Made by a program: the position numbers and the translations under genes | Source: Pistricoccus aurantiacus | Lineage (GTDB): Bacteria > Pseudomonadota > Gammaproteobacteria > Pseudomonadales > Halomonadaceae | Assembly (NCBI RefSeq): GCF_007954585.1 | Contig: NZ_CP042382.1 | Coordinates: forward strand, 1,116,001-1,180,000 | Length of the DNA stretch: 64,000 nt | Reading direction: 5' to 3' | Notes under the pieces: generated by a model | Databases searched by the model: none | What the model saw: the letters and a program-made list of their open reading frames with translations, nothing else | What the model was told of the DNA's origin: nothing | In this document: positions 11,577 to 26,076 of the stretch, one piece after another | Numbering within the stretch: the first letter of the stretch is position 1 | How the letters are laid out: each line of letters begins with the position of its first letter

Positions 11577-11676
11577 CGAACTTGCGGCAGGAATGAGTCG
11601 CAGGTGAAGAGACTGCAAATATGCGTGGTCTCTTTCATTCATCATCATTCAGGCATATTAATCATTGGAGAGACAG

Positions 11677-11946
11677 ATGGCACTGACCGCTGAAAAGAAG
11701 GCCGAAATCGTCAAGGAATACGGCCGTGGTGACAACGACACCGGCTCCCCGGAAGTCCAGGTGGCGCTGCTGAGCGCCAATATCAACGGACTGCAGGATC
11801 ACTTCAAGACCAACAAGCAGGATCACCATTCCCGCCGTGGTCTGATCCGCATGGTCAACCAGCGCCGCAAGCTGCTTGACTACCTCAAGCGCAAGGATTT
11901 CGAGCGCTATCAGTCGTTGATTCAGCGGCTTGGCCTGCGCCGCTAA
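11677..11946 (+). CDS. rpsO: 30S ribosomal protein S15
   Basis: Primary 16S rRNA-binding protein of the platform. At 89 aa the sequence starts [16 protein letters not shown] and contains [13 protein letters not shown] and the [18 protein letters not shown] helix. The start at 11677 follows GGAGAG; an in-frame ATG at 11665 is too close to that motif. The rpsO-pnp order is conserved in enterobacteria and pseudomonads. Confidence 0.97.
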
Positions 11947-18328: not shown

Positions 18329-19750
18329 TTAATCCCGAGATTCGTTCTGAGCGCTGGAAGGGGTTTGCGTGCCCCGAGGCTTGCGCTTGCGCTTGCGACG
18401 TTTCTTGGATCGCGCTGTGGCTGTTGGATCTGCATCGACCTTGTCCAGCAGCCGACGCTGCTGGTGCTCGTCAGCCTCCTGGAAGGCGGTCCACCAGTGG
18501 CCCAGTCCCGGGGCCAGTTCGCCGGCCTCCTCGCGCAGCAGCAGAAAATCGTAGGCGGCGCGAAAACGAGGGTGCTCGAGAGTCTGCAGGGCGCGCTTGC
18601 CGCGTCGCGAGGGAAGGCGCTGCTGCAACTCCCAGATCTCGCGCATGGGCATGCTGAAGCGCTTGGGTATCGAGACGTGCTGCAGCTGGCGGGTGATGGC
18701 CTGCTGTGCGGCACTATGCAGGGCGGGAATGACGGGCAAACCCTCCGCTTCCATGCGTGCCCGACGCCGAGTCACCCCCGGCCACAGGAGGGCGCCGATG
18801 AGAAAGGCCGGGGTGACCGGGCGCTCTTCGCGAATTCGCTGGTCCGTATTGTCGAGTGCGCGTTCGAATAACGCCAGCGCCCAAGGCAGCTCGCTGATCG
18901 ACTCTTCCGCTTCGGGAAACAGCATGGCGAACAGGCCGTATTCTCGCAGCAGCCGGAAGGTGGCAAGCGCATGACCAGAGAGAAACAGCTTGAGCACTTC
19001 ATCGAAGAGACGCGCCGGGGGGATCTGCAGAAGCAGCGGGGCAAGGTCGTAGATCGGCTGCCGAGTAGCGGGCTCGATGGTGAAACCTAGCTTGGCGGCG
19101 AAACGCACGGCGCGCAACATGCGCACTGGATCCTCGCGGTAACGAGTCTGGGGGTCGCCGATCAGGCGCAAGGTAGAATTTTCGATATCTCGCGCGCCGC
19201 CGGCCCAGTCGTGGATCGAGAAATCCGCGATGCTGTAGTAGAGCGCGTTGGCGGTGAAGTCCCGGCGCAGCGCGTCTTCCTCGATATTGCCCCAGACGTT
19301 GTCCCGCAGCAGCATGCCGTTTTCGGACCGCTCGGCGATATGCTTGCCATGCTCATCGCTGGGTCGGCCGCGAAAGGTAGTGACCTCGATCACCTCGCGA
19401 CCGAAACGCACATGGACGATGCGAAAGCGGCGCCCGATGATACGCGAATTGCGAAACAGCTCGCGTACCTGATCCGGTGTGGCGTCGGTAGCGACATCGA
19501 AATCCTTGGGAGTCTTGCCCAGCAAGGCATCGCGAATACAGCCGCCCACCAGGTAGGCTTCGAATCCGCCATCCTTCAGGCGATAGAGCACCTTGAGGGC
19601 TGCATCGGAGAAGCACCGCCGAGAGACCTTGTGTTCATCACGGGGAATGATATGCGGCCCCGCCGCGTGGCTGGCACCGCCCTGGCTGTCAAAAAGAGAC
19701 TTCAAGCGTTCACCGGGGGTTTGTAGAAAGCGGATAAATCCTTTGAACAT
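18329..19750 (-). CDS. pcnB: poly(A) polymerase I
   Basis: Adds 3' poly(A) tails that promote RNA decay. At 473 aa the class II nucleotidyltransferase core is visible: YLVGGCIRDALLGKTPKDFD with the catalytic Asp pair, RIVHVRFG, RRDFTANALYY and REDPVRMLRAVRFAAKLGF. The C-terminal tail is Lys/Arg-rich (KKRRKRKRKPRG), as in E. coli PcnB. It lies directly downstream of the sRNA candidate between cbrB and pcnB, as in Pseudomonas. Confidence 0.95.
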   Translation of the reverse strand: MFKGFIRFLQTPGERLKSLFDSQGGASHAAGPHIIPRDEHKVSRRCFSDAALKVLYRLKDGGFEAYLVGGCIRDALLGKTPKDFDVATDATPDQVRELFRNSRIIGRRFRIVHVRFGREVIEVTTFRGRPSDEHGKHIAERSENGMLLRDNVWGNIEEDALRRDFTANALYYSIADFSIHDWAGGARDIENSTLRLIGDPQTRYREDPVRMLRAVRFAAKLGFTIEPATRQPIYDLAPLLLQIPPARLFDEVLKLFLSGHALATFRLLREYGLFAMLFPEAEESISELPWALALFERALDNTDQRIREERPVTPAFLIGALLWPGVTRRRARMEAEGLPVIPALHSAAQQAITRQLQHVSIPKRFSMPMREIWELQQRLPSRRGKRALQTLEHPRFRAAYDFLLLREEAGELAPGLGHWWTAFQEADEHQQRRLLDKVDADPTATARSKKRRKRKRKPRGTQTPSSAQNESRD

Positions 19751-19907
19751 GCAGCGATTAACTCGCTAAGTGAGAAAGCTTCAAGTGTAGTCGAGAGGCG
19801 ACACCTTGGAAACCATTTGTGGCGCTCGGTAACCGGCAACTGCAAGACAGTTGCGGGTCATAAGCATCTTTATAGCCTTGAAGGAGAAAAAGGAGAGGAA
19901 ACGACAA

Positions 19908-20410
19908 AGAGAAAAGGGAGACCGCATGGCCTCCCCCGTTAGGTGACGATACTGCATCCGTGCCGTTGATTTTTCTTCGTGATGGCGCATCGTCTTGAAT
20001 ACGTAACACAGTCATATGACGTATCTTGTCGGTAATGGCTCTTGTCATTGTTCTTGCTTACCAACGTTGGCCGTCTCGTATTCAAGACAATAATCCAACC
20101 ACGACGGTAGCGTTCTACCTCCCTTCGGTGAGTTGTTGTTGTTGCCGAAGGTCTACTTCTCGAAAGTCTACTTGTTCTTGTCGCTTTCCTCGAGTACGTC
20201 GCGTGCAGTCTTCCAGACCTGGAATGTTGTTGTTGTATGGTGTCAAGCGAACGTCGTCCTGAATTATTGTTATAGCCAGACAACTCGCCGGGTTCGATAG
20301 GATTGTTGTTGTTTTATCGATTTCAGACTCGGATGCAGATTGTTGCTGTTATTGATTGCGCTTGTTACTCGCGATATCCAAGTGATAGGTCTGGGTGTTG
20401 TTTTTCTTGA
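19908..20410 (-). ncRNA. crcZ: CrcZ-type Hfq/Crc-sequestering small RNA candidate
   Basis: This fills most of the 925-base gene-free stretch between cbrB and pcnB. Read on the minus strand it starts about 12 bases after a sigma-54-type promoter, ends at a strong terminator, and is roughly 500 bases long. It contains eight AANAANAA clusters. Their plus-strand TTNTTNTT positions are 20398-20405, 20303-20315, 20264-20271, 20227-20234, 20172-20179, 20133-20143, 20048-20055 and 19970-19977. Such CA motifs are the Hfq/Crc-binding sites of Pseudomonas CrcZ, which occupies the same cbrB-pcnB gap and is about 400 bases. No convincing ORF is present. Function is inferred from position, promoter and motifs. 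Confidence 0.8.
19916..19935 (-). terminator. rho-independent terminator of the CrcZ-type RNA
   Basis: On the minus strand an 8-bp stem GGGAGGCC/GGTCTCCC (one G-T pair) with loop ATGC is followed by TTTTCTCTTT. It defines the 3' end of the RNA and isolates it from pcnB, which starts about 165 bases further on. Confidence 0.85.
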
Positions 20411-20419
20411 TGTATATGT

Positions 20420-20435
20420 TGCACCAGCCATGCCA
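20420..20435 (-). promoter_or_regulatory. sigma-54-type promoter of the CrcZ-type RNA
   Basis: The minus strand reads TGGCAT-N5-GTGCA against the consensus TGGCAC-N5-TTGCA. The invariant GG at -24 and GC at -12 are correctly spaced. The predicted start is near 20409. The neighbouring CbrB is a sigma-54 activator, as its GAFTGA motif shows. Confidence 0.75.
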
Positions 20436-20490: not shown

Positions 20491-20585
20491 CTAATGCGAC
20501 GCAGATAAGTGTTACCCGTGGATCGCTTATTTGCGCGGATAAATGTGTGGGACGGTAACACTTGGCGCATTAGCACAAGTGTCAT
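20491..20585 (-). promoter_or_regulatory. candidate CbrB upstream activating sequence
   Basis: A nested inverted repeat has outer arms CTAATGCG (20491-20498) and CGCATTAG (20566-20573) and inner arms AAGTGTTACC (20507-20516) and GGTAACACTT (20554-20563). A third half-site AAGTGTCA is at 20577-20584. The centre is about 120 bases upstream of the predicted start, typical for an enhancer-binding protein. TGTTAC/GTAACA arms are, as I recall, the reported CbrB core in Pseudomonas, but there with a shorter spacer than the 39 bases here. Confidence 0.6.
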
Positions 20586-20676: not shown

Positions 20677-22074
20677 TCAACTCGCCCGGCTGCGAGCACT
20701 TTTCTTGCGCGGAATTCCCAGCCGTTGACGACGCTCCCATAAGCACTTGCGGCTGATGCCCAGCTTTTGTGCCAACTCGGTTTCACTCATCTGCTCTTGG
20801 TGCTCGAGTACGAAATGCTGGAAATAATCCTCCAGAGATAGATCCTCTTCGTCTTCGGCGAGAGAGTTCTCCGCTGCGTTCGGGGGTCGGTCGGCGGTGT
20901 CGAAATTCAGGGCACCGGTATCGCGTCGGCGGGGTGGTACGGCGATACCCAGATCATCCGCGTGAATCAAGTGGCCTTCCGCAAGGATGACGCCACGCTC
21001 AAGGGCGTTCTCCAGCTCGCGCACGTTGCCGGGCCACAGTGAATCGCGGATTTCCCGGCGTGCCGCTCGAGAGAGCTTCAGGCCTTCCCGGTCGTGGCGA
21101 CGGCAGGCGTTTTCCAGCAGCTTGTCGGCGATCAGCAGGATGTCGTCTTCTCGCTCGCGAAGCGGCGGCAGGTCAATCTGCATCACGTTGAGGCGGTAAT
21201 AGAGGTCGAGGCGAAACTCGCCGTTTCTGGAAAGGCTGTGCAGATCGCGGTGGGTAGCGGCGATCAGGCGTACGTTGACGTGTCGAGTCTCCACCGAGCC
21301 GATCTTGCGAATTTCCCCCTCCTGCAGCACCCGCAGTAAACGGGCCTGAGCATCCAAGGGCAACTCGCCAATCTCGTCGAGAAACAAGGTGCCGCCGTCC
21401 GCAGCCTCCACCAGGCCGGTGCGCGCCGCGCTGGCGCCGGTAAAGGCGCCTTTTTCATGACCGAACAGTTCGGATTCGATCAGGGTCTCCGGAATGGCGG
21501 CGCAGTTGACACAGATCAGCGGCGCTCGGGCACGCTTGCTTTGACGATGGAGCGAGCGCGCCACCAGTTCCTTGCCAGTACCGGACTCCCCGTGGATTAA
21601 CACCGTCACATCCTTTGGAGCGCTCTTGCGAATGCGCTCGTAGACCACCTGCATGGCGGCGCACTCGCCGATCATCTCCGAAGGCGCCGATGTCTCGTGC
21701 TCGGCCATAGAGGGCGGCATGCTGGCCGCATGTTGTTCGAGCACTCGGGACACGGTGGCCAGCAGTTCTTCATGATCGAAGGGCTTGGCGATATAGTCCA
21801 CCGCGCCGAGTTTCAAGGCCTCCACCGCGGAGCGCATGCTGGCGTAGCTGGTCATGATCAATACTGGCACGGGGGCGGCGCGAGCGATCATGGCGGTACC
21901 TTCCTCACCGGGCAGGCGCAGGTCGCTGATGACCAGATCGAAGCGCTGAGGATCCAGCGCCTGGGCTGCGGCCACGCTATCCGCCTCGCCGATCTGATGA
22001 TCATGACGCTCCAGCAGACGGCGCAAGGCGCCGCGAATCACGGCTTCGTCTTCAACGATCAGAATCCGGCTCAT
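20677..22074 (-). CDS. cbrB: sigma-54-dependent response regulator CbrB
   Basis: NtrC-family activator. From the ATG at 22074 ([10 protein letters not shown]) it is 465 aa: receiver domain with phospho-acceptor Asp51 (VISDLRLPG), AAA+ domain with Walker A GESGTGKE, the sigma-54-contacting loop [26 protein letters not shown], and a C-terminal Fis-type helix-turn-helix ([20 protein letters not shown]). It overlaps the end of cbrA by 23 bases. A GTG at 22086 is an alternative start. In Pseudomonas CbrB turns on crcZ and amino-acid catabolic genes; the same target lies directly downstream here. Confidence 0.92.
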
Positions 22075-25009
22075 GATGGGAATCACTGTCCTCTATATGG
22101 ATGGGCAGCCATACGCTGATACGGGTGCCACGTTCAAGGCCCGGGAGCGGGGAATCGATATGGATCTGGCCGTGGTGCTCGACGATGATGCTATACACCA
22201 GCGGCAGACCGAGTCCCGTACCTTCTCCGAGGGGCTTGGTAGTGATAAAGGGTTCGAACAACTGGTCGCGAATCTCCGCATCGATTCCTCGGCCCTGATC
22301 GGTCACGCTGAGGGTCACGCCATGCGGATCGGCCTGGGTCGCGATAACGATCTCGCTACCCGGGGGGCTAGCATCCCGGGCATTACTCAACAGGTTGACC
22401 AGCACCTGAGACAAGCGCTGCGCGTCGCCGCTGACAAAAGGCTCCGAAAAGCAGTCATTGCGATAGACGATATCCTGGCCCGAGCGTGCCAGATGAATCA
22501 AGTGCAGCGCTTCATCGGTGATCCGCTTGAGATCGACCGGGGCAAAAGGCTCGCCCGGCACATGACGACCACCGTGAGCAAACCCGACCAGCGACGAAAC
22601 GATTCGCGAGACCCGCTCGGTCAGCGTCTGGATCTGCTCGGCGCTCTCGAGAATCACGGGGTCGTCGGTATCGTAACGCAGATTCTGCGCCAGGGACGAA
22701 ATGCCGGTGATCGGATTGCCGATCTCGTGGGCGACCCCCGCCGCCAACTGGCCTATGGAAGCCAGGCGCGCCGCATGCACCAGTTCGTCTTCCAGCCACT
22801 TCATTTCGCTGTGATCCTCGACCAGGATGACGCTGCCGCCACGCTCCTCTTCATCTCCTTTAAGCTCCGCCTTGTGCAGCGTCAGGTAACGCAGGCCCTG
22901 ATCCAGTTCGACGGGCTGCTTGTAAAGGTGGCTGTTCTGGTTATCCAGGATGCGCCCCAGCAGCTCGTTCCATGGTGAGGGCAGGCAGTCTCGGCGGGCG
23001 CCGACCACGCTTTCGCCGTCGATGCCGGAAAGAATCGCCAGGGCCTGATTCCACATCAGCAGTTCGTCGTCGCTGCCGAAAGCGCACAAACCAATCGGCA
23101 GCTGGGTCAGGGTGCGCCGATGATGGCGGCGCAGCCCGTCGAGTTCTCGCGCCATGCCGGTCAGCCGCGAGCGATAGGCTTCCAGGCGGCTCTCGACGAA
23201 ATGAATGTCGTCCGTGACGACCCGGCCATCGCGGCGATAGGGCAGAAAACGGTCGACGATATCCTCTGCCACCGCCGGGCCCATCAAGCCGGACAGGTTG
23301 GCCTGGATACGATCCCGTAAGCGGCGTAGCGCATAGGGGCGACTATCCCGGGACGATTGCTTGAGAGACACCAGGGCGCGGGAAACCTCTCGCTCGGCGA
23401 CGTCTTCTCCCAAGGCCACCGCGAGATGGCGCTTGAATTCCTCGCCGTCCGCAGCGGCCAGAGGCAGGCGCTTGGGACGGATGACCGCATCGACGGAACA
23501 GGCTTCCGCGGCGGCACGTTCACCCTCGGAGGTCTTGCTGATCAGCGCCACCAGGATAAAGACCAGGATATTGGCGGATAGCGACACGAGAGTGACCGCG
23601 TACCAGGCCGGCTCATCCGCAAGCGCTTCCAGACCCGGTGGGATCAGCACCTGGGCTGGCTGGCCGGTCAGCAAGGGAAACCACAGCCCCAGCAGCCAGA
23701 TAATGATGCCCACGACCAGACCGCTCACCATGCCCTTGCGATTGGCGCCGGGCCAGTAAAGAATCGCCAGCAGTCCTGGCAGGCATTGAGCCATGCCCAC
23801 GAAGGCGGTCAGCCCCAGGGCGGTCAGGTCGTGATGAAAGCCGATCAGGCGATAGAAGAGCCAGCCCCCGAGGATGACCGCGGCGACCAGGGCGCGGCGC
23901 AGCCAGCGCAGCCAGCGGTAGAGATCCGGCCGCTGGGTCGGAGGGCGAGCCAGCAGCACGAGATGATTGAGAATCATCCCGGACAGGGCCAGGGAGATGA
24001 TGATCAGAGTGCCGCTGGCGGCGGCCAGACCGGCGATGAATGCCAGGCCATCGATCCAGGAAGAGTTCGACAGGCTGAAGGCCAGGTAGGCAGGATTCAG
24101 CCCCGCCAGATTACCCTGGTACTGAGCGCCCCACAGGATCAGCGGAATAGGAATCGCCAGCAGAAGCATGTAAAGCGCCAGGCTCCAGCCGGCTTGCAGC
24201 AGCGAGCGGGACGACAGGGTTTCGGTGAATACCATATGAAACATATGCGGGGTCAAGAACGCTGCGGCGAAGAACAGCAGCAGCAAGGTGCGCCATTGTC
24301 CCGCATCCAGAGGCGTAACGGCGATCTGGTGTGAGAGTCCCGGGCCGTCGAGCCAGGTCTGAAGATCCGCGGAGCCGTCGAAGATACCGAAAAGTGCGAA
24401 GCCTCCTAGCATCAGCATGGCCGCGAGCTTGACCAGGGATTCCAGGGCGATCACGCCCAGCAGGGTGTCGTGGCGCGCCTGCAGGCGAGTATGGCGGGCG
24501 CCGAACAGAATCGCGATCAAGGCGATCAGCGCGCAGAAGGCCAGGGCGAGCAGCGCCGGTGATCCTGCCCCGGTCAGCAGATAGATGCTGTCGCCCATGG
24601 ATTGCACCTGCAAGGCGAGCAGAGGCAGTATTGCGGCGATGCTGACCAGGGTAACGAGGGTGCCGACCCAGCGTGAGCGAAAGCGGAAGGCGAACAGATC
24701 CGCCAAGGAATACAGCTGATAGGTACGTGCCATGCGCTGGATCGGCAGCAGCAGCACCGGCGCCAGCAGAAAGGCGCCGGCCACGCCCAGGTAGTAGGTG
24801 AGATAGCCATAGCCGACCTGGCTGACCAGTTCCATGCTGCCGTAGGTGGCCCAGGCGCTGGCGTAGACGCCCAGTGCCAGGGTGTAAACCAGGGGATGGC
24901 GCAGCAGGCGCGCGGGTATCCAGCCTCGCTCCACCGCCATCGCACAGCAGAAGAGCAGCCCCAGATAGCCACCCCCCAGCAGGAAAAGACCGCCCAGGCT
25001 AGTGGTCAT
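22052..25009 (-). CDS. cbrA: sensor histidine kinase CbrA with transporter-like N-terminus
   Basis: About 985 aa. The first ~500 residues are a run of transmembrane helices of the sodium:solute symporter type, then a linker and PAS-like region. The kinase has H-box [13 protein letters not shown] near residue 755, N-box [18 protein letters not shown] and [11 protein letters not shown]. This fusion is diagnostic of CbrA. The ATG at 25009 is preferred to a TTG at 25030; it overlaps the stop of the small upstream ORF by 11 bases, suggesting translational coupling. It pairs with CbrB. Confidence 0.92.
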
Positions 25010-25175
25010 CCTGTTGCCTGCGCTGCTCAAGCCACAAAGTCAGGCCGATCAAGATTCCCCAGATGACGAAGGGACGATACCAGGCGCTGCCGGGAATCTC
25101 CCAGCCGCTCATCAGTAGCGGCGAAAGCAGGTAGCCGCTCAGTACCAGAAACAGCATGATCCGGTAGACGTACAT
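24999..25175 (-). CDS. small membrane protein upstream of cbrA (CbrX-like)
   Basis: From the ATG at 25175 it encodes 58 aa with two hydrophobic segments (IMLFLVLSGYLLSPLLM and FVIWGILIGLTLWL), ending just inside cbrA. GAAG lies 8 bases before this ATG. An earlier start at 25217 would overlap gluQ. In P. putida a short ORF named cbrX sits in the same place and is coupled to cbrA; I assign likeness by position and overlap, not by sequence alignment. Confidence 0.65.
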   Translation of the reverse strand: MYVYRIMLFLVLSGYLLSPLLMSGWEIPGSAWYRPFVIWGILIGLTLWLEQRRQQDDH

Positions 25176-25203: not shown

Positions 25204-26076
25204 TCAGGTAGCGACATAACCCGGCAGGCGACGGATATCCCAGTGAAATCGAGCTTCGGTCAGTTGCTCTTCCACCGGGGCCTGTTCGAGCTCCGCCGAC
25301 GGCGCCTGAGAAAGCGCATGCAGGGCAGCATGCAGCAACGGCCGTACCTGCTTGTCTTGTGTAGGCAGCGGCGGCGCCAGGTTCTGCTTGGAAAGCTTGT
25401 GGCCATCCGCGCCCAGGATCAAGGGAAGATGTAGATAGCGCGGCACCGGCAGTGCCAGAGCGTGTTGTAACTGTATCTGCCAAGAGGTGTTATCCAGCAG
25501 ATCCGCACCGCGCACCACTTCGGTGATGCCTTGATGAGCGTCATCGACCACCACCGCCAGCTGATAGGCCCAGAGATTGTCCTTGCGCTTGAGTATCACG
25601 TCCCCCAGGTCAGCGGGATCGAAACATTGCTCGCCGAGGCGTCGATCCCGCCAGATGACCAGTCGCAGCCCGAGATCGCTGCGCAGGCGCCAGGCGCAAG
25701 GTCTCGTCGGTTCGCATATACCTTGGCGACACCAGCCTGGGTAAACAGGATAGTCCTGCCACTGCTTGCGCGAGCAGCTGCAAGGATAGGCCATGCCCTG
25801 TTCGCGCAGGCGTTCCAGCGCCTGGTGATAACGCTCCCGATGCGCGGACTGATAGCTCACCGCTCCGTCCCAGTTCAGGCCGAAGGCCTCGAGCTGGTGC
25901 AGGATGGTATCGGCTGCCCCCGCCGGACAGCGCGGCGGATCGATATCTTCAATACGTACCAGCCATTCCCCGCAGGCGCTCCTGGCATCCAGGTAGCTGC
26001 CCAGAGCCGCCACCAGAGAGCCGAAATGTAAAGGGCCGGAAGGCGTCGGCGCGAAACGGCCGCGGTAGCCGGGCAT
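25204..26076 (-). CDS. gluQ: glutamyl-Q tRNA(Asp) synthetase
   Basis: Paralogue of the GluRS catalytic domain that attaches glutamate to queuosine 34 of tRNA-Asp. At 290 aa it has no anticodon-binding domain. It starts YRGRFAPTPSGPLHFGSL, has Cys residues for zinc (CSCS and the later C-x4-C in GWCRQGICE), and a KLSKQN version of the KMSKS loop. It follows dksA, as in most gammaproteobacteria. Confidence 0.95.
   Translation of the reverse strand: MPGYRGRFAPTPSGPLHFGSLVAALGSYLDARSACGEWLVRIEDIDPPRCPAGAADTILHQLEAFGLNWDGAVSYQSAHRERYHQALERLREQGMAYPCSCSRKQWQDYPVYPGWCRQGICEPTRPCAWRLRSDLGLRLVIWRDRRLGEQCFDPADLGDVILKRKDNLWAYQLAVVVDDAHQGITEVVRGADLLDNTSWQIQLQHALALPVPRYLHLPLILGADGHKLSKQNLAPPLPTQDKQVRPLLHAALHALSQAPSAELEQAPVEEQLTEARFHWDIRRLPGYVAT

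Follow-up and report, generated by a model that had tools for sequence, protein, structure and literature searches.

The CrcZ-type RNAs of Pseudomonas are the closest described systems to the RNA gene analyzed here, and the available part of the review PMC8871633 presents them as A-rich decoys acting against Crc/Hfq. In Pseudomonas putida, CbrB activates crcZ via the subsites F1 (TGTTAC), R1, and R2, which stand in a fixed order with 20–25 bp between their centres; replacement of any single subsite in PcrcZ abolished binding in vitro and left partial activity in vivo (PMC6296734, in the portion available). According to the available portions of both sources, one a review (PMC8871633) and the other a research article (PMC6296734), CbrAB is confined to Pseudomonadaceae or pseudomonads. 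No description of a Halomonadaceae CrcZ-type RNA was found in the literature searched, which was mostly non-subscription, and prior work is possible. CrcZ was not linked to Halomonas there, and nothing was found for CrcZ with Oceanospirillales or with Marinobacter. In the literature on CbrA/CbrB/Crc, Halomonas was named, among the matches listed, only in the available part of PMC9049629, and among those listed for CrcZ, Crc, and Hfq the name Halomonadaceae did not occur.

The window analyzed is a 64,000-nucleotide stretch of the Pistricoccus aurantiacus genome, in which a 926 bp gap separates cbrB from pcnB, both on the minus strand (Table 1). The CbrB protein carries the receiver, sigma-54 activation, and AAA lid domains of Pfam. 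It scored 412.6 bits against the NCBIfam NtrC model, under the cut-off of 558.6, and a separate true NtrC elsewhere in the genome scored 728.3 bits. For CbrA, Pfam detected HisKA and HATPase_c only. At 11605-11733 the window also contains an ordinary known element, the ribosomal S15 leader (Rfam RF00114, 52.8 bits).

Table 1. Positions of the features at the cbrB–pcnB locus, numbered within the window.
Feature	Position	Strand	Basis or remark
gluQ	25204..26076	-	gene before cbrA in window
cbrA	22052..25030	-	sensor histidine kinase, 992 aa; named by adjacency to cbrB and size
cbrB	20677..22086	-	sigma-54-dependent response regulator, NtrC subfamily; protein families and gene position
CbrB subsite F1, TGTTAC	20555..20560	-	125 bp upstream of -24 box; subsite sequence from PMC6296734
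CbrB subsite R2, GTAACA	20510..20515	-	80 bp upstream of -24 box
-24/-12 sigma-54 promoter TGGCATGGCTGGTGCA	20420..20435	-	consensus match; predicted start near 20409
Predicted CrcZ-type RNA	19908..20409	-	502 nt, predicted sigma-54 start to end of terminator tail
A-rich cluster 1 AAGAAAAACAA	20398..20408	-	motif scan
A-rich cluster 2 AACAACAACAA	20303..20313	-	motif scan
A-rich cluster 3 AACAATAA	20264..20271	-	motif scan
A-rich cluster 4 AACAACAA	20227..20234	-	motif scan
A-rich cluster 5 AAGAACAA	20172..20179	-	motif scan
A-rich cluster 6 AACAACAACAA	20133..20143	-	predicted hairpin loop
A-rich cluster 7 AAGAACAA	20048..20055	-	within loop enclosed by long paired element
A-rich cluster 8 AAGAAAAA	19970..19977	-	motif scan
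Paired element, 15-bp and 8-bp helices around variable loop	19969..20103	-	model R1, 108.9 bits here
Intrinsic terminator hairpin, T-rich tail	19914..19937	-	10 pairs; hairpin scan
pcnB	18329..19750	-	poly(A) polymerase; protein families

The original prediction had placed a -24/-12 promoter, eight A-rich clusters, and a terminator on the minus strand of this gap, and all three were recovered. The predicted RNA showed 11 overlapping matches to AANAANAA in 503 nt, which group into eight clusters between 20408 and 19970, compared with a mean of 0.71 and a highest value of 5 in 1000 dinucleotide shuffles and with 0 on the antisense strand. The minus strand of the whole window contained 15 such matches, 11 of them inside the cbrB–pcnB gap. 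In the predicted fold the motifs were mostly unpaired (mean 0.88, compared with 0.39 for the remaining RNA). The terminator-like hairpin taken alone is weak evidence, because about 1.5 such sites were expected when shuffled DNA of the same region was scanned. The RNA had been described as somewhat longer than its Pseudomonas counterpart, which agrees with the predicted 502 nt against 398 positions in the Rfam CrcZ model. The claim that it has more motif clusters did not hold: the same count in cbrB–pcnB gaps gave 11 matches here, 14 in Pseudomonas fildesensis, and 12 in Serpens.

The CbrB subsites, which were absent from the original prediction, are the best evidence for a CrcZ-type RNA. The window retains F1 and R2 at Pseudomonas distances without R1; between the two sites no GTAACA or one-mismatch form of it was present. 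The same scan of Pseudomonas fildesensis gave F, R1, and an R2-like GTAACG at 124, 104, and 82 bp upstream of the -24 box, respectively.

A CbrB orthologue (about 60–100% identity) was present in 114 of the 151 sampled family genomes, and the remaining 37 had only CbrB hits of about 1e-89 to 1e-94. The CbrB-bearing sample comprised 71 loci, from 70 of these 114 genomes and from Halomonas maura (L073), and yielded 70 parsed cbrB–pcnB gaps (69 family genomes and L073). Loci L062 (no pcnB found), L072 (no pcnB), and L071 (an apparent duplicate of L005) were left out. A contig scan with CbrB returned mostly other NtrC-family proteins, and L071-L078 were used among its 80 loci. All 70 parsed gaps had F at 112–137 bp together with R at 77–83 bp upstream of the -24 box, a placing found in 0 of 7000 shuffled regions, and in all 70 the best sigma-54 match scored at least 9; the halomonad loci are related by descent, and these counts are not independent trials. 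Matches to AANAANAA numbered 8–26 per gap on the sense strand (mean 15.5) and 0–4 on the antisense strand (mean 1.1). Subsite pair, promoter, and A-rich RNA occurred together in 70 of the 71 CbrB-bearing Halomonadaceae loci read. In the other, L062 (genome G023), no A-rich RNA or promoter followed the CbrB-like gene. This 2.7-Mb genome has a YajQ-like frame (by reading) after the CbrB-like gene and also lacks the paired element described below. Loss of the motifs among relatives had been named beforehand as what would speak against the prediction; the A-rich motifs were kept across Halomonadaceae.

The Rfam CrcZ model RF01675, with which the original prediction had proposed to scan, gave no match in the window or the whole genome at its gathering cut-off of 95 bits, so the RNA does not qualify as a member of RF01675. 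The positive controls scored 349.6 bits (Pseudomonas, L074) and 272.1 bits (Serpens, L077), and the scores of Gilvimarinus (L076, 36.3 bits) and Litchfieldella (L071, 22.5 bits) stayed below the cut-off. Weak Rfam matches to MicX, Six3os1, and DnaX lay on the opposite strand, far below their cut-offs, and were rejected. Given the missing RF01675 match, we regard the RNA as the counterpart of CrcZ in position and anatomy and not as a member of the sequence family. The anatomy expected of a CrcZ-type RNA was present in the cbrB–pcnB position, the sigma-54 promoter, F1 and R2, the predicted-unpaired A-rich motifs, and the encoded Hfq and Crc; subsite R1 between F1 and R2 was missing.

The genome of the window encodes Hfq (85 aa) and, as a check for crc revealed, a Crc orthologue. 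The latter gave an E-value of 9.9e-76 to PDB 4jg3 and is 46.6% identical to P. aeruginosa Crc; in the same PDB search an Exodeoxyribonuclease III chain (PDB 2myi) scored equal to Crc. Only D220 was kept of the four AP endonuclease catalytic positions (position 148 was inferred from the available text of PMC3662782), compared with D220 and H246 in P. aeruginosa Crc according to the same text. The gene lies between pyrE-like and rph-like frames (names by reading). Among the residues that contact RNA or Crc, as given in the available part of PMC6422490, K135, R138, K139, R140, R141, E142, W161, E193, R196, R229, and R233 were kept, and R137A, K155T, M156L, R162A, N184P, R230Q, F231H, and W255L were changed. 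Three of these changes (R230 to Q, F231 to H, W255 to L) affect the dimer interface of the protein (L155:1459-2259). Owing to the interface differences, the Hfq-Crc-RNA assembly may differ here. A Crc-like protein (E 1.1e-114 or better) was found in 151 of 151 family genomes.

Sites for the putative repressor were sought with AAYAAYAAYAA, which occurred 14 times in the 3.78 Mb genome, twice within the predicted RNA. Ten of the 12 sites outside the RNA were read. One site lay 24 nt before the start of ureidoglycolate lyase (allA) and another 26 nt before that of a TRAP permease (DctM). These two are tentative candidates for Hfq-Crc sites, few in number but located where such sites would be expected. 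None of the remaining sites among the 10 read had such a clear placing: one was followed after 62 nt by a 287-aa frame with no Pfam match, and another, after at least 87 nt, by a class-III aminotransferase frame of uncertain start.

We therefore favor, with a probability of roughly 85%, the reading that CrcZ has its Halomonadaceae counterpart here, in a predicted Hfq-Crc decoy RNA driven by CbrB and sigma-54. The claim that a CrcZ-type RNA controlled by CbrB and RpoN exists outside Pseudomonas is supported by the Pseudomonas-spaced CbrB subsites, the family-conserved motifs, and the encoded Hfq and Crc. By analogy with Pseudomonas, the RNA would be activated by CbrB, would bind Hfq and Crc, and would relieve catabolite repression. 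When good carbon sources are exhausted, CbrB would switch on the sigma-54-dependent RNA. Hfq, partnered by Crc, would be bound at its distal face by the eight A-rich clusters of the RNA, most of which fall in predicted loops, and the Hfq-Crc repressor would be titrated away from A-rich sites at the translation starts of mRNAs for catabolism and uptake.

The RNA also contains a paired element specific to the family. GAATACG ... CGTATTC was found about 290–385 nt after the promoter in 96 of 104 parsed loci and in 95 of 98 distinct halomonad loci, and the helices of 15 and 8 bp were obtained by RNAalifold from 48 selected sequences. In the 48-sequence alignment, 98.0% of the cells were paired, compared with 95.3% in shuffled and 28.9–43.4% in slid alignments. 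The covariation score was 0.179 (shuffled 0.128), and 25 cells were changed on both sides (shuffled 7.4); these statistics are biased towards the structure, because it was derived from the same alignment. The pairs with double change (4, shuffled 3.1, reached by 143 of 500 shuffles) and the further pair types (20, shuffled 17.8, reached by 40 of 500 shuffles) did not stand out. Double changes were confined to the 8-bp helix, and the 15-bp helix was nearly invariant, with 10 of its 15 pairs constant across the 48 sequences. With model R1, built for this element, 148 of the 151 family genomes each showed a single copy, among them 35 of the 37 CbrB-less genomes; G016, G017, and G023 gave no match. 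Across 28 sources it was strong in the window and L061; the other strand of the window gave 22.5 bits and Pseudomonas L074 13.9 bits (E 0.96). No other match was obtained among these sources, 23 of which were loci from outside the family and three the halomonad loci L062, L184, and L185.

Several features of the gap could be read differently. It immediately precedes pcnB on the same strand, and crcZ read-through from the cbrB promoter is known in P. putida (PMC8871633, in the part available), so that the gap might be a long pcnB leader, or a cbrB trailer, whose A-rich patches act on pcnB translation in cis and not through titration of Hfq in trans. However, the terminator-like hairpin ends 164 bp short of pcnB and is preceded by the paired element and all eight clusters, which lie away from the pcnB start. 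So many motifs would also be superfluous for a single cis site, and we consider this reading improbable. The conserved element itself invites the view that the RNA works mainly by base pairing, as an sRNA in which the 3' element TTGAATACG...CGTATTCAA is active and the A-rich patches only load Hfq. The invariance of the long-helix pairs goes beyond the needs of pairing, and the single copy per genome would suit this view as well; yet the arms pair mutually (99.6% of cells) and are probably not free for mRNAs, and the A-rich motifs beside CbrB extend far beyond the range of the element, which leaves a base-pairing role of this kind with a slim chance.

A small protein would be hinted at by the open frames at 19939-20283 and 19758-20048 (114 and 96 aa, respectively), but the 114-aa frame had no Pfam match. 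Moreover, the helix arms stand apart by distances that differ by non-multiples of three (for example 71, 72, 73, 74, and 75 nt), and thus no reading frame is kept across the family; the likelihood of a coding function is practically negligible.

The putative decoy RNA was then followed into relatives without CbrB, in 28 of the 37 genomes, which were examined through pcnB, with cbrA sought in the 1.5 kb upstream of it. An A-rich stretch upstream of pcnB was present in 28 of 28 loci (10–18 motifs sense, 0–3 antisense). None of the 28 had F or R where these would be expected, and one-mismatch R forms at 78–80 bp were seen in L159, L173, and L175. The best sigma-54 score was 10–11 in 21 of 28 loci and 9 in L159, L170, L172, L176, L179, L183, and L184; a score of 9 taken alone does not exceed chance, since the opposite flanks of 18 CbrB-less loci, taken as control, reached best scores of 7–9. 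Among 15 loci whose neighbors were read from translations, a gluQ-like frame stood upstream of the RNA region in 12, dksA was upstream in L184, and L166 and L186 were uninformative. In L186 (G136) the pcnB match is split and has in-frame stops, which suggests a broken gene or a misassembly.

A rough tree of PcnB pieces (101 sequences, excluding L069 with a short PcnB piece and L186 with the broken pcnB frame) gave 5 changes, with uneven support. CbrB was likely lost at least three times in the family, because G104 and genus g4 were placed apart from the other losses in this tree. Even in genomes that have lost the regulator gene, the RNA region appears to be retained. Judged from the genomes compared, this is a conserved CrcZ-type RNA gene, whose predicted distribution exceeds the one given in the cited papers and whose apparent persistence without CbrB was unexpected. 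The role of the RNA in the absence of its usual activator can be studied in the CbrB-less lineages, which amount to a natural experiment.

A possible substitute activator was searched for with TGCACCANNNTGGTGCA, which we take to be the NtrC consensus, and dyads were scored as matches of 14. A dyad of at least 9/14 at 95–150 bp occurred in 28 of 28 CbrB-less promoters (shuffle mean 2.9 of 28), and a dyad pair spaced 31–32 bp in 20 of 28 (shuffle mean 0.005). The same tests on CbrB-bearing halomonads gave 44 of 70 single and 22 of 70 paired (shuffle means 6.9 and 0, respectively). The mean best dyad scores at these places were near background in 28 loci from other families (6.7 and 7.2, compared with 6.6). 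The window's own positions scored 7/14, which equals background; the NtrC idea therefore rests on the relatives, and the element is weak or lost in Pistricoccus aurantiacus. NtrC was above the curated cut-off in the genome of the window and in the CbrB-less genomes G089, G111, and G017. Upstream of P-II genes, a sigma-54 match of at least 10 within 300 bp was found in only 3 of 20 loci, each with a dyad of 11/14 at 103–104 bp, a result that lends little support. CbrB and NtrC sites overlap at the Pseudomonas hutU promoter (PMC8871633, in the part available), which provides a precedent for dual control.

From these dyads we tentatively propose, at somewhat less than even odds, that the Halomonadaceae CrcZ-type RNA gene is also an NtrC target. 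Its ancestral promoter would have carried tandem NtrC-like dyads interleaved with CbrB subsites, and CbrB would then have disappeared from several lineages, probably on three or more occasions, with the RNA and Crc retained there under NtrC-type control alone. If true, carbon and nitrogen shortage would converge on one decoy RNA, and an effector RNA would have outlived its own regulator via handover to a paralogue.

Beyond the family, a CbrB hit at E <=1e-150 was obtained in at least one genome of 41 of 47 families (390 genomes of the order), and only weaker hits were seen in f13, f15, f19, f25, f27, and f46. The region downstream of cbrB was read in 36 loci of 25 other families; where no downstream pcnB was present, a fixed 900-bp stretch, or the available DNA, was taken, which may include coding DNA. 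Sense matches to AANAANAA exceeded antisense matches in 22 of these 25 families, weakly in f3, f9, and f30, and no sense excess was found in f6, f8, and f36. A sigma-54 match of at least 10 was present in 20 of 25. F and R stood at strict distances in at least one locus of nine families (f9, f14, f20, f30, f32, f37, f38, f44, and f47), one of the two did so in eight (f3, f16, f21, f22, f24, f26, f29, and f40), and only shifted subsites occurred in three (f2, f31, and f35). The other five of the 25 families (f6, f7, f8, f12, and f36) had no CbrB subsites. The CrcZ-type feature, as predicted from these loci, is not peculiar to Halomonadaceae, and the order-wide occurrence of CbrB with a putative A-rich RNA contradicts the exclusivity of CbrAB to Pseudomonadaceae. 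Such a distribution would make CbrB-type carbon control an old, order-wide circuit, and Halomonas, a genus used in bioplastic production, would be a place to test it.

Compared with CrcZ of Pseudomonas and Azotobacter (RF01675), the RNA described here is alike in its cbrB–pcnB position, sigma-54 promoter, F1/R2 distances, A-rich motifs, terminator, and encoded Crc and Hfq. It differs in having no Rfam match, in the absence of subsite R1, in a length about 100 nt greater than the model, and in the paired element, which model R1 did not match in the loci of other families tested; in many halomonad relatives the promoter also carries NtrC-like dyads. CrcY and CrcX of Pseudomonas are likewise A-rich decoy RNAs acting against Crc/Hfq (PMC8871633, in the part available). 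They are, by the same account, extra copies beside CrcZ, whereas here 148 of 151 family genomes have a single copy of the paired element, a count that covers element-bearing copies. The sRNA99 of Acinetobacter baumannii was reported to be reminiscent of CrcZ in RIL-seq and to have three A-rich motifs; the available text of PMC12802169 describes no CbrB control. At the Pseudomonas hutU promoter, CbrB and NtrC sites likewise meet at one sigma-54 promoter, but the target in the available account (PMC8871633) is a catabolic operon and not a CrcZ-type RNA gene.
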